A stretch of 44,388 nt of DNA from a virus: the IMG/VR virus record IMGVR_UViG_3300029448_007258, positions 1 through 44,388 of that record; one strand, given 5' to 3'. A program made the position numbers and the translations under genes. The notes under the pieces were generated by a model. It searched no databases, was not told the DNA's origin, and saw only the letters and a program-made list of their open reading frames with translations. Numbering within the stretch: position 1 is the stretch's first letter; every line of letters begins with the position of its first letter. Below are positions 6,567 to 16,747 of the stretch, in pieces.

Positions 6567-6914
6567 TTATGCTTCTCCTTTTACTTTGTTAAAAAATTCA
6601 TCCTTAGTAATACCAAGTCTACCTTTGGTTTTCAAACCCCAAGAATATTCACTCTTTAATTTCTTGTTAGCCAATACATTAACCCAAAACTCATCAGTTG
6701 GATTAACACAAACAAAATCATAGTTCTTTAAGAACCTATCAACAGCATCACCTCTAAAAAAATAACATCTCTCATATCGTAGATTAAGAGTAGAATTAAA
6801 AAGTTTGGGTTTACCATCATAACCTTCATCTACAGAAACATGATGAATAGTACCACTCTTCTTATTTACCCAAATACTATAAGAACCTTTCTTCAGATGT
6901 TTTTTCAAATTCAT
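6567..6914 (-). CDS. Hypothetical protein, first gene after promoter P1
   Basis: The ATG at 6914 gives 115 residues (MNLKKHLKKGSYSIWVNKKS...). I prefer it to 6935 because AAAAAGGG lies 8 bases upstream, whereas 6935 falls at the predicted transcription start. Content includes a strand-rich start and an aromatic segment (LRYERCYFFRGDAVDRFLKN). Unknown function; leader mirrors that of the HAD gene at 7101-7607. Confidence 0.6.
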   Translation of the reverse strand: MNLKKHLKKGSYSIWVNKKSGTIHHVSVDEGYDGKPKLFNSTLNLRYERCYFFRGDAVDRFLKNYDFVCVNPTDEFWVNVLANKKLKSEYSWGLKTKGRLGITKDEFFNKVKGEA

Positions 6915-6940
6915 TATTTTTTCCCTTTTTGTCATATGTG

Positions 6941-6970
6941 AATATACTAAAGAATTAGTATATGTGTCAA
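6941..6970 (-). promoter_or_regulatory. Promoter P1 (TTGACA-18-TATATT)
   Basis: Minus-strand -35 TTGACA at 6970-6965 and -10 TATATT at 6946-6941, 18 bases apart, with an A-rich stretch just upstream of the -35. One of eight near-identical minus-strand promoters in this block. The sequence after the -10 (CACATATGACAAA) is repeated after P2. Confidence 0.8.
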
Positions 6971-6984
6971 GGTTTTTTTTAAAT

Positions 6985-7099
6985 TAATTTTGAGTGCCAC
7001 TAACTTAACCCACATTCCATGGCGGCGCTTATTGTCCAATGTGGAGAACGCACTATTAGCGTTCGGCGCTCGAGAACCATTAGTGAACACTCAAAATTA
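6985..7099. ncRNA. Structured RNA element, branched fold
   Basis: A 115-base gap between the HAD stop and promoter P1 has no gene but extensive pairing. A closing helix of 12 pairs joins 6985-6996 with 7088-7099 and is continued by 6 pairs (6998-7003 with 7080-7085). Inside are a 7-pair arm (7010-7016 with 7038-7044) and a 6-pair arm with a 7-base loop (7046-7051 with 7059-7064; loop ACTATTA in plus sense). GGCGCT occurs in both remaining loop segments. The coding strand is uncertain because the helices are symmetric; as minus-strand RNA it would be the 3' part of the HAD transcript. No known class recognised. Confidence 0.65.
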
Positions 7100-7100
7100 T

Positions 7101-7607
7101 TTAGAAGTCTCCCGGTGCTACTTGAAAAGTATTAAGACCTAAGTCTCTCCACATCTTCACAACCTTATCTCTATCGTCAACTACAAGAAAAACATCATCG
7201 ATATCTACGAAAGTATCTAACATAGCCTTCTTTAGTATTTCATCTGGCATAAATCTCATATCAGGTGTGGCTGGATTACCAGCAGCAATTGGCCACGAGT
7301 CTGCTTTAAACTTATCTGGTCTCATAACCAAAAGGTCAAATGGTACATTATGTATCTTCAACCAATCTCTAGTAGCAAAGAAACCTCTATCGTTTCTTCC
7401 ACTAAAGATAACAATCTTAAATCCATCTTTATGAAACATCTGAGCCATTTTGATTACTGGTGCATTTGGTGTATCCCAATCCATAATAGAAGTAGGAGAA
7501 GCAAATATATCCCAATTCAACTTACCATTAGCTTTAAGAGACTTATCTCTCCTAACATCAATATTAGCAAGAGTTCCATCTAAATCAAAAATTACTGTTT
7601 TTTTCAT
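7101..7607 (-). CDS. HAD phosphatase (polynucleotide-kinase phosphatase-like)
   Basis: The ATG at 7607 follows TGAGGAAAAA and gives MKKTVIFDLDGTLAN; 168 residues. HAD motifs: DLDGT (8-12), IVIFSGRND (motif II), a Lys in KMWRD/KADSW region and VFLVVDDRDK (motif IV). The layout with NVPFDLLVMRPD is typical of the 3'-phosphatase domain of T4 Pnkp and stand-alone phage relatives. Probable role is removal of 3' phosphates from DNA or RNA ends or of small phosphates. Transcribed from P2. Confidence 0.8.
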   Translation of the reverse strand: MKKTVIFDLDGTLANIDVRRDKSLKANGKLNWDIFASPTSIMDWDTPNAPVIKMAQMFHKDGFKIVIFSGRNDRGFFATRDWLKIHNVPFDLLVMRPDKFKADSWPIAAGNPATPDMRFMPDEILKKAMLDTFVDIDDVFLVVDDRDKVVKMWRDLGLNTFQVAPGDF

Positions 7608-7630
7608 TTTTTCCTCATTTGTCATATGTG

Positions 7631-7660
7631 AATATACAAATAAAAGGTTATACAAGTCAA
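7631..7660 (-). promoter_or_regulatory. Promoter P2 (TTGACT-18-TATATT)
   Basis: -35 TTGACT at 7660-7655, -10 TATATT at 7636-7631, spacing 18. It drives the HAD gene. The bases after the -10 duplicate those of P1 (CACATATGACAAA). Confidence 0.8.
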
Positions 7661-9221: not shown

Positions 9222-9497
9222 TTAACTTTCCTTTCCATCAGGCTCATCCCAATAATGTTCTTCACCTGGTGAGTTTATTTGTGATTCAATAAAATCTTCT
9301 GATGACATATTATCGTCACCCATATAATCTATACCATAATTATAATAATCGTTAATGTATCTTTGTATGTCTTTTGAATTGATGTATAACCCAACCATAT
9401 TTTGTGGTCTTATTTTGTTTAAAGCTGTTTGGTCTTTGTTGATTCTCTTAAATAAATAGTGGCCTAATTTGTTAAACATCATAATTTTTTTATCCAT
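9222..9497 (-). CDS. Hypothetical protein, acidic C-terminus
   Basis: A 91-residue protein (MDKKIMMFNKLGHYLFKRIN...). It overlaps the zinc-ribbon gene by 19 bases. A downstream ATG pair at residues 6-7 could be the true start. Tyr/Asn-rich centre, acidic tail EEHYWDEPDGKES. No family recognised. Confidence 0.55.
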   Translation of the reverse strand: MDKKIMMFNKLGHYLFKRINKDQTALNKIRPQNMVGLYINSKDIQRYINDYYNYGIDYMGDDNMSSEDFIESQINSPGEEHYWDEPDGKES

Positions 9498-10015
9498 CTT
9501 CGTTGCTTGGTAGACATCATTTGTAACGAGGTAAGTTCGTTGGTGATTTTGGATTTAACGGTTAGTGAAATCTTATCGCTTGTGTACAACGATTGTGTAA
9601 GTTCATACGCTGCTTGATAACCTCTACTATCATATCTATCAATAACTTCTTGCATGGCTTCCCGAATAGGAATGTAAATGGGTAATGGTGTAGGTTTGGG
9701 AATGTGTTTTGGCTTATCCTCTTTCTTAGTGTAATACCCCTTTAACCACCTATCCCAAGACTTATCCGATACGATACCTTTTGCTTTACGAGTAGTACCA
9801 CCAGCAGCTCGTCTATCCAAGCGCTTCATATTATTAGACTGTTCAGCTGACATAGGTTGGATATACCCACCTGTCTTATGTGGGTATACTGTATGGGATG
9901 CATACTTCTCTGTAGAACTACAATCCAAACATTCTGTGTAACCTAATTTATATCTATCCTCTGATACATTATTATCACAACTTACGCAAACGATGGCTTC
10001 TCTTTCTTTATCCAT
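9479..10015 (-). CDS. Zinc-ribbon protein
   Basis: A 178-residue protein with an N-terminal four-Cys zinc ribbon (C10-x2-C13 and C29-x2-C32 in CVSCDNNVSE...CLDCSS). A conserved basic segment follows (SNNMKRLDRRAAGGTTRKAK), then a proline-rich linker and a helical C-terminus. DksA/TraR-like or nucleic-acid-binding roles are possible, but the DksA coiled coil is missing. Function unknown. Confidence 0.6.
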   Translation of the reverse strand: MDKEREAIVCVSCDNNVSEDRYKLGYTECLDCSSTEKYASHTVYPHKTGGYIQPMSAEQSNNMKRLDRRAAGGTTRKAKGIVSDKSWDRWLKGYYTKKEDKPKHIPKPTPLPIYIPIREAMQEVIDRYDSRGYQAAYELTQSLYTSDKISLTVKSKITNELTSLQMMSTKQRRWIKKL

Positions 10016-12474: not shown

Positions 12475-12479
12475 ATTGG

Positions 12480-12645
12480 TATGCTCCTTTATCTGTATAC
12501 CTATAAATATTGTCTAGCTAAATATTATTTAGCGTACCGCTAAAATTTAGTGGGAACTCCAGACACCGACTCTATCGCCAGGACGGTGAACAGTGGCTCT
12601 TAACCCTAGTTCCCTCTAATTCTTTATTTTATCTCTCTAACTCAT
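12480..12645 (-). ncRNA. Structured 5' leader (riboregulator candidate)
   Basis: Minus-strand RNA from P6. A 63-base domain is closed by 7 pairs (12608-12614 with 12552-12558) and contains CACCG/CGGTG pairing (12584-12588 with 12564-12568). Downstream, nearer the gene, two mutually exclusive hairpins share one arm: the 17-base palindrome at 12517-12533 and the inverted repeat at 12528-12544. Then comes the ribosome site. This domain-plus-switch order is that of riboswitches or attenuators; no known class recognised. Confidence 0.5.
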
Positions 12646-12650
12646 GCCTA

Positions 12651-12680
12651 AATATACTCATTAATTGCCATACAAGTCAA
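12651..12680 (-). promoter_or_regulatory. Promoter P6 (TTGACT-18-TATATT)
   Basis: -35 TTGACT at 12680-12675, -10 TATATT at 12656-12651, spacing 18, preceded by AAAAAAATTAAAAAAA as an UP-like element. It opens the structured leader of the 65-residue gene. Confidence 0.8.
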
Positions 12681-12694
12681 GTCTTTTTTTAATT

Positions 12695-12920
12695 TTTTTC
12701 ACATAGTAGAATGGGGGAGAATCGAACTCCCCAGCCATACTAGCGGACTACTCAGGTAATCACTCCCTTTTGTCCTCTGACGCCACTTACCTAAGAGAGT
12801 GATTAGCTCTCTATCATCAGCCTTCATCCCATCGCCTTACTCAGTTGGGGATTTGAACCCCCGGCACACCAATTTTCAGCACCTTTCAGACTTCTGAGAG
12901 TGTCTTTGTTCTCTCTCAAC
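12695..12920 (-). ncRNA. Untranslated RNA with tRNA-Phe-like 3' half and second T-arm-like hairpin
   Basis: About 225 bases between promoters P7 and P6 with no gene. A T-arm-like segment (GGGGG TTCAAAT CCCC) lies at 12845-12861, and CTGAAAA, the anticodon loop of tRNA-Phe(GAA), lies exactly 22 bases upstream of the T loop as in real tRNA. The anticodon stem, D-arm and 7-pair acceptor do not form. A second T-arm-like hairpin (GGGGAG TTCGATT CTCCCC) is at 12713-12731. Between them, 9 pairs join 12797-12805 with 12757-12765, and a competing 6-pair helix joins 12787-12792 with 12754-12759. Degenerate tRNAs or a tRNA-mimic RNA are both possible. Confidence 0.5.
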
Positions 12921-12925
12921 ACCTA

Positions 12926-12955
12926 AATATACACATAAAAGCGCACATGAGTCAA
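12926..12955 (-). promoter_or_regulatory. Promoter P7 (TTGACT-18-TATATT)
   Basis: -35 TTGACT at 12955-12950, -10 TATATT at 12931-12926, spacing 18, A-rich element upstream. It transcribes the tRNA-like RNA region only. Confidence 0.8.
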
Positions 12956-12964
12956 GTCTTTTTT

Positions 12965-13200
12965 TCATTTATTTTAACTTTTTTATTGGTTATTACGCTG
13001 GTGAAGCGTTAACGGCTGGAACAGATAATGTTGCTATGGGATATTGTAAGCTACCGAGCTCATCCTAACCTATATCGCTGCGCCCAGTCGCACGATGTTA
13101 ACCCAGCCTGGTTTAAATCCACGATTCATTTAAAATAAACCTTGACTATTACCTCAAATATGTGTAAATTCCAGGTTGTTTTTGATTAACTTAACGATAT
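12965..13200. ncRNA. Structured intergenic region after the regulator gene
   Basis: No credible reading frame. Inverted repeats include ACGCT/AGCGT around 13000, GGCTGG (about 13015) with CCAGCC (about 13104) enclosing roughly 85 bases, and a GC-rich segment CGCTGCGCCCAGTCGC. It may be a 3' UTR of the regulator on the minus strand or a separate RNA. The plus strand carries a promoter-like sequence at 13142-13170 pointing toward the regulator gene. Confidence 0.35.
13142..13170 (+). promoter_or_regulatory. Plus-strand promoter-like sequence (TTGACT-17-TAAATT)
   Basis: TTGACT at 13142-13147 and TAAATT at 13165-13170, spacing 17, with AT-rich sequence upstream. It would produce RNA antisense to the regulator gene. 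It is the only convincing plus-strand promoter I see. Confidence 0.4.
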
Positions 13201-13211
13201 GCTTGGATTAG

Positions 13212-15886: not shown

Positions 15887-15990
15887 TACTCACTCTCTTT
15901 CTTTACACTCAACATTTTAACAATCATATCTAATTTCTTTTCTATTGACGCTAGAAGGTTAATAAGCTGATTTGATGTTTTTTCATCCAT
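15886..15990 (-). CDS. Very small helical protein
   Basis: 34 residues: MDEKTSNQLINLLASIEKKL then DMIVKMLSVKKESE. CAGGAG sits 7 bases upstream and it overlaps the Mom-like gene's end by 8 bases. One amphipathic helix; probable oligomerisation peptide. Function unknown. Confidence 0.65.
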   Translation of the reverse strand: MDEKTSNQLINLLASIEKKLDMIVKMLSVKKESE

Positions 15991-16747
15991 GATTTACTCC
16001 TGTTTTGTTATTATAAACTTTTACCTTTATTACTTCTGGTTCCATTATATCCGCTGTTTTAGGATAAGGAAATATAGGATGTTTTAGATTCTGTGTAGCC
16101 GTTCTCTTCTCTCTCTTAGTACCGAGCAGATACACATACCTATGTTTTCTCAACTCCTTCTTTACCCAAAAATCTTTCTCTACCAAGCTCTTCATCTTTT
16201 CTATGTTGTTTGTTCCATAATATGGAAATATAGTTCTACCATGTTGCCATTTACCATCCTCTTCCCATTTAAATAACCAACTGTCATTTGGTCTTATCCT
16301 ATTACCCTGATATAACCAATTGGTTGCTTGGTATATAGTACCTACATGACCTTGTTGGGGATCTGAGTATGATATGAGAGCCTTTATATCTTTTCTATTC
16401 TTCTTTAACCAATTAAAGCCTTCTCCTATCAGATACGATTCAACGTTACTTCCATAACCATCATGCACAAATAGTCTTACTAATTCGTATACATTTTCTC
16501 TTGGTATAGCAGCTGATATCGAAGCGCCTGAATGTCTACCTATCGGATCACCATAACATATTGTACCGATTAGTTTCTCTTCTGGCTCATCAAAAAATTG
16601 GTGTTCATTACCTGTGGTGTAATATAACCCTAAAGCTATACTACATTTAGTCCATTGTTTAGAGTAGTGGTATTTAACCACCATACTTTTAGCAACCTTT
16701 CTATCTATTTCCCTAACCGATAATTTTGAGGTATCTACATATTTCAT
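15983..16747 (-). CDS. mom: Mom-like DNA-modification GNAT protein
   Basis: 254 residues, close to Mu Mom. Features: KYHYSK (25-30), ELVRLF (88-93) and SYSDPQQGHVGTIYQATNW (126-144), the strongly conserved Mom core, then KHRYVYLLG (201-209). Mom is a GNAT-fold protein that hypermodifies adenine and shields phage DNA from restriction enzymes. The zinc-finger translational activator Com of Mu is not found nearby. Whether the same chemistry occurs cannot be read from sequence. Confidence 0.85.
   Translation of the reverse strand: MKYVDTSKLSVREIDRKVAKSMVVKYHYSKQWTKCSIALGLYYTTGNEHQFFDEPEEKLIGTICYGDPIGRHSGASISAAIPRENVYELVRLFVHDGYGSNVESYLIGEGFNWLKKNRKDIKALISYSDPQQGHVGTIYQATNWLYQGNRIRPNDSWLFKWEEDGKWQHGRTIFPYYGTNNIEKMKSLVEKDFWVKKELRKHRYVYLLGTKREKRTATQNLKHPIFPYPKTADIMEPEVIKVKVYNNKTGVNHG

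Follow-up and report, generated by a model that had tools for sequence, protein, structure and literature searches.

We report a previously undescribed non-coding RNA gene carried by six uncultured marine phages. One of these phages is the source of the window, by which we mean the whole stretch of viral DNA analyzed here (44,388 nucleotides; IMG/VR virus record IMGVR_UViG_3300029448_007258, positions 1 to 44,388). There, the gene specifies a branched RNA of about 105 nt on the minus strand, directly behind a gene for nucleic-acid-end repair that encodes a putative phosphatase. Defined by homologs and covariation, the whole structured RNA extends over 6985-7099, with the family-model core at 6990-7094. 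Our preferred reading, to which we assign a probability of roughly 0.6, is that the element belongs to a new family, stands alone as an RNA acting in trans and is not part of the phosphatase mRNA. A branched RNA in a gap of a tightly packed genome had been pointed out earlier from the letters of the window alone (hereafter the original prediction), and that observation is right but understated. The gap spans 6936-7100, and minus-strand open reading frames of at least 50 amino acids cover about 94% of the window.

The fold, common to all six sequences, is a four-way junction of helices P1, P2, P3 and P4. Read along the minus strand of the window, it starts with the 5' strand of P1 (7079-7099; core 7094-7079, with an AU-rich outer extension to 7099). 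Next come P2, a 3-pair hairpin at 7065-7078 with the 8-nt loop UCUCGAGC at 7075-7068, and P3, a 6-pair hairpin at 7046-7064 with a 7-nt loop at 7058-7052. P4 follows at 7009-7045, a 7-pair arm extended inward by 4 pairs (P4b), and a 4-nt linker (7008-7005) leads to the 3' strand of P1 (6985-7004). P1 has 15 core pairs and about 20 in the window; the pairs of P4 are conserved, and the P4b pair nearest the loop is unformed in the window. The original prediction described a closing stem of 12 + 6 pairs with a small bulge, a 7-pair arm and a 6-pair arm with a 7-nt loop. All of these are present at 6985-7099: the outer arms TAATTTTGAGTG/CACTCAAAATTA form 12 pairs, followed by the small bulge and by the 6 pairs of CACTAA/TTAGTG, and the further arms are CCACATT/AATGTGG (7 pairs) and GAACGC/GCGTTC (6 pairs, 7-nt loop). 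Left out of that description were the 3-pair hairpin P2, the 4-pair P4b and the strand.

The minus strand folds with a minimum free energy (MFE) of -40.2 kcal/mol (z -4.30, with none of 200 shuffles as good) and the plus strand with -35.4 kcal/mol (z -4.37). When 7,382 segments of 115 nt from the two strands of the window are ordered by MFE, the minus-strand segment at 6985-7099 comes second; with GC content corrected for, it comes first. The copy in contig L182 is only moderately significant by RNAfold (z -1.96). The closing stem, being an inverted repeat, can fold on both strands, and low energy is therefore insufficient to establish the strand or the reality of the RNA.

To look for homologs, we collected 80 relatives of the phosphatase from viral contigs and inspected the sequence that follows their stop codons. 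Most of these relatives have tRNAs or protein genes at the place of the RNA, and three homologs were found in this manner, in contigs L084, L087 and L085. A covariance model of four sequences (R1), applied to matches of a degenerate pattern, identified two more distant homologs, L190 (107.6 bits, E 4e-24) and L182 (96.7 bits, E 2e-21). The five homologs, all from uncultured phage contigs, score between 128.3 and 96.7 bits, and the window, one of the model's own sequences, scores 112.5 bits. Eight further pattern matches (L204-L211) failed the covariance model, and L086 was discarded as a chance 18-mer match in coding DNA. The resulting set comprises six sequences, about five of them independent, from one group of uncultured phages, with pairwise identities of 71.7-99.1%.

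Each carrier record contains one copy of the RNA. Searches with covariance model R1 or R2 over the full length of 150 distinct phage records, the six carriers and 144 related ones, detected no further copy, many of the records being fragments. Two exact patterns, which would miss diverged copies, had no match in 84,980 prokaryote genomes. When the region was compared with phages and plasmids by BLAST, nothing matched, and the RNA alone gave chance matches only (e.g. 19 nt in T4 regB). Consistent with the original prediction, which could name no RNA class for the element, Rfam 15 gave no match in the window at the gathering score, and permissive thresholds up to E 10 produced nothing credible on the RNA of the window, L182 or L190.

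The pairing had been taken from the outset to be under selection, a view that compensating changes in the stems of related phages would support, and such changes are present among the five homologs. Standard pairs make up 98.6% of the 210 pair cells in the six sequences. Changes on both sides of a pair affect 10 of 35 pairs and 18 cells, compared with 5.2 and 6.4 in shuffled alignments, none of 500 of which scored as high. Sliding the pairing partners destroys this signal, and a MAFFT alignment, which is independent of the model, yields identical counts. The pairs changed on both sides are distributed over P1 (5 of 15 core pairs), P2 (2/3) and P3 (3/6). For example, most of P3 differs in two homologs, where GAACGC/GCGUUC has given way to AGCCGG/CCGGUU and GGUCGG/CCGAUC; pairing is complete in both. 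P1, P2 and P3 are thus supported by covariation across the aligned sequences; P4 is nearly invariant, with one-sided variation at 2 pairs only, and thus lies outside the reach of covariation. Since G-U pairs are tolerated (31 of the 210 cells) and A-C is absent (0 of 210), the covariation places the structured strand on the minus strand, in the sense of the phosphatase transcript. We regard it as almost certain that the structure is real and selected, and as very probable that the element acts as RNA. The compact size of the RNA would suit NMR, crystallography or gel tests, and covariation fixes most of the fold.

Among the unpaired positions that never vary is the entire P2 loop, which carries the palindrome CUCGAG in all six sequences. 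By our own estimate, a 6-nt palindrome arises in a random 8-nt loop with a chance of roughly 5%, and for this reason we treat it as a hint only, one that may point to RNA-RNA pairing.

Next, we considered the surrounding genes. The adjoining HAD gene of the original prediction is an open reading frame at 7101-7655 on the minus strand, directly upstream of the RNA, that matches the PNKP-type 3'-phosphatase family (PF25109 HAD_PNKP, E 1.6e-26). It also matches T4 polynucleotide kinase (1ltq, E 2.7e-10), its matches in the PDB being T4 Pnkp and Pnkp1, and the true start is probably an ATG inside the open reading frame. The promoter proposed beside the RNA corresponds to a sigma-70-like sequence at 6941-6970 on the minus strand (TTGACA-18-TATATT, 11/12 consensus positions, a match that does not by itself prove use), directly 3' of the RNA and ahead of the next gene (6567-6935). 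Another promoter-like sequence, TTGACT-18-TATATT at 7631-7660 on the minus strand (10/12), lies in front of the phosphatase gene; of the candidate promoters for the RNA in the window phage, it is the nearest. No intrinsic terminator was called at the element in the window, where an A-run rather than a U-run follows on the minus strand. The phosphatase could point to RNA-end repair, but PNKP-type enzymes act on DNA ends too. A UvdE gene is located near the phosphatase in the window, and no RNA ligase was found in the same phages, although the PF09511 search gave no control match either and is uninformative for that family. Because such phosphatases also act on DNA, no ligase was found and UvdE is nearby, we do not press a link to RNA repair.

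The RNA lies directly 3' of the phosphatase gene in five of the six carriers (the window, L084, L085, L087 and L190), starting a few bases after the stop codon. In the L084 genome, relatives of the window neighbors (6267, 6038, the glyoxalase-like 7665, and 7948) sit at about 36-41 kb, where neither phosphatase nor RNA is present. These two occur together at 72 kb, and the pair has therefore been kept together in two different genomic places. Both patterns would suit a cis-acting 3'-UTR element of the phosphatase mRNA that protects the 3' end or serves as a processing site between mRNA and tRNA, an explanation that we consider rather unlikely. In L182, the RNA is located 2.6 kb from the phosphatase, and the detached copy indicates that an adjoining phosphatase gene is not needed. 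There the RNA begins at 6605, 4 nt past the -10 box of a promoter-like sequence (TTGACT-17-TATATT) that ends at 6609, and the RNA ends 9 nt ahead of a tmRNA whose first base is 6490. The L182 RNA appears to have its own promoter, which would start transcription at the 5' end of the RNA. Moreover, most related phosphatase genes lack the RNA, and simple protection would leave the invariant P2 loop and the conserved P4 sequence unexplained. The stand-alone reading leans on one contig, L182.

Three of the six carriers have tRNA or tmRNA genes within 9 nt of the RNA. In L084 and L087 the order is tmRNA, a gene of no assigned function, phosphatase, RNA, 7 nt, tRNA-Ala, tRNA-Cys and tRNA-Gly; together with L182, this arrangement could indicate a cis-acting leader, either a riboswitch or a processing leader, of the following tRNA or tmRNA. 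A glutamine riboswitch has in fact been reported with a marine phage tmRNA, the glnA-type element of phage Melnitz (PMC9004378), which is a structured RNA at a tmRNA as is the new RNA in L182. By Rfam, however, the new RNA is a different element, with no match to glnA or any other riboswitch, and it also occurs without a tmRNA or tRNA behind it. The 55.9-kb record of the window has no tRNA or tmRNA (ARAGORN finds none in the window), and none follows in L085 as far as the contig reaches; in L190, the order is phosphatase, RNA and tRNA-Gly, with 61 nt between the last two. Elsewhere, the spacers are too short for a terminator. What follows the RNA varies among tRNA-Ala, tRNA-Gly, tmRNA, a GIY-YIG gene and a promoter, which disfavors a leader for a single downstream gene, and we hold such a role to be improbable.

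The distribution of the RNA is patchy. On the phosphatase tree, the six carriers require 5 presence changes, at least 3 of which are forced by well supported branches, and this number argues for frequent gain or loss of the RNA. The window is also a mosaic: its P1 and P2 are 95.9% like L190 and its P3 is 94.7% like L084; its phosphatase groups with that of L084 (84% DNA identity versus 66% for L190). Recombination within the RNA gene would be the simplest reading of these identities; parallel change of a few stem pairs is a less simple alternative that would also account for them. Patchiness and mosaicism, along with the inverted-repeat ends, would be expected of an element acting at the DNA level, be it a mobile element with inverted repeats, a hotspot of homing or recombination, or a hairpin resembling an origin. 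So would the SegE-type GIY-YIG endonuclease gene of L085, which starts at about 9757 immediately 3' of the RNA, a position held by tRNA-Ala in other phages. We judge a DNA-level role to be less probable still, as against it stand the covarying internal arms, the tolerance of G-U but never A-C, and the single copy per record. Finally, a short open reading frame, suggested by one frame that runs uninterrupted across the element in five of the six sequences, can practically be dismissed, with 10-12 nonsynonymous versus 2-5 synonymous differing codons in divergent pairs, a shifted and stopped frame in the window and no ATG in L182.

We conclude that the element is a new RNA family of a loosely known kind, namely phage RNAs near translation RNA genes. 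To our knowledge, phage tRNA islands hold several structured RNAs of unknown role (T4 RNA C and D, GOLLD and ROOL), to which the new RNA adds a further, unrelated and much smaller member. A parallel is found in the tailed phage T4, whose tRNA cluster, which also contains a GIY-YIG homing endonuclease gene, ends in two small stable RNAs, RNA C and RNA D (species 1 and 2); we know of no function for either. Their predicted folds differ from the new RNA, RNA C ending in a tRNA-like T-arm sequence, and an unfiltered model search of the T4 cluster gave chance scores only (best 6.8 bits). GOLLD and ROOL, likewise from phages and prophages and without a known function, often lie close to tRNA islands, but they measure several hundred nt compared with about 105 nt, and the new RNA has no Rfam match. 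Both form assemblies by kissing-loop contacts, of which some are symmetric (PMC12286853). The invariant palindromic P2 loop would be compatible with an RNA-only homo-oligomer of this type.

Bacterial Y RNAs (YrlA) are likewise small structured RNAs linked to RNA-end repair genes. YrlA has a tRNA-like domain and has been suggested to be a competitive inhibitor of a tRNA nuclease (PMC7790460). A gene for the partner protein TROVE/Ro60 (Rsr) was detected in none of 22 phage records, many of them partial, and one control genome matched. The window RNA contains GNCGAA(N)G, which we take to be the Y-RNA motif. The motif is not kept in L190 and L182, and identity with Y RNAs was rejected on this ground together with the lack of a TROVE gene in those records. 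The new RNA further differs in that ARAGORN calls no tRNA in the window and Rfam gives no match. ARAGORN likewise does not call the element as a tRNA or tmRNA in L084, L085, L087, L182 or L190. A tRNA mimic was also discarded as a class assignment: P2 and P3 slightly resemble D and anticodon arms, but the junction linkers and U33 are missing.

For the preferred stand-alone RNA, we infer transcription, processing and action in trans. The RNA would usually be made as the tail of the phosphatase-gene transcript. Where tRNA-Ala or tmRNA follows within 7-9 nt, the RNase P cut at the tRNA or tmRNA 5' end would free the RNA 3' end; cleavage or trimming at P1 may contribute to release, and the long P1 helix would protect the RNA ends. 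In one phage, L182, transcription would start from the RNA's own promoter. The company of a 3'-phosphatase, tRNAs and tmRNA provides a setting in which to seek function, namely nucleic-acid-end repair and translation during infection. As a tentative guess, the RNA might pair with itself via the P2 palindrome or bind a host factor, serving phage takeover or the protection of translation RNAs. More speculative, and in our view doubtful, is a new class of small trans-acting phage RNA that would self-pair through P2 and protect or reprogram tRNA or tmRNA in infected cells, for instance by acting as a decoy for a host tRNA nuclease.

Several other features were observed in the related phages and in the window. 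A DruA-domain gene lies behind the tRNA island in L084 (6295-7452; PF14236, E 6e-25) and in L190 (8146-9339), the latter looking like the same protein by its opening residues; PF14236 is a family of Druantia defence proteins, and the gene neighbors tmRNA, phosphatase and the new RNA. Predicted tmRNA genes with unusually long tag peptides (e.g. AKSNTAGVQVTPQAYQQSYAYAA) are found in L182 (6050-6490), L039 (1834-2254) and L044 (1771-2180). Within the window, a protein query from 9479-10015 found no relatives, and a Mom-like DNA modification protein is encoded at 15983-16747 (phrog_1384, E 2.8e-50). The largest stretch without a minus-strand open reading frame of 50 amino acids (12475-13211, 737 bases) contains a 53-nt imperfect direct repeat around a promoter-like sequence. 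Lastly, 18242-44198 holds a run of more than 20 kb of apparent sugar-nucleotide, glycosyltransferase and methyltransferase genes, as read from the translations of the open reading frames, that looks like an unusually large surface-sugar cassette for a phage.
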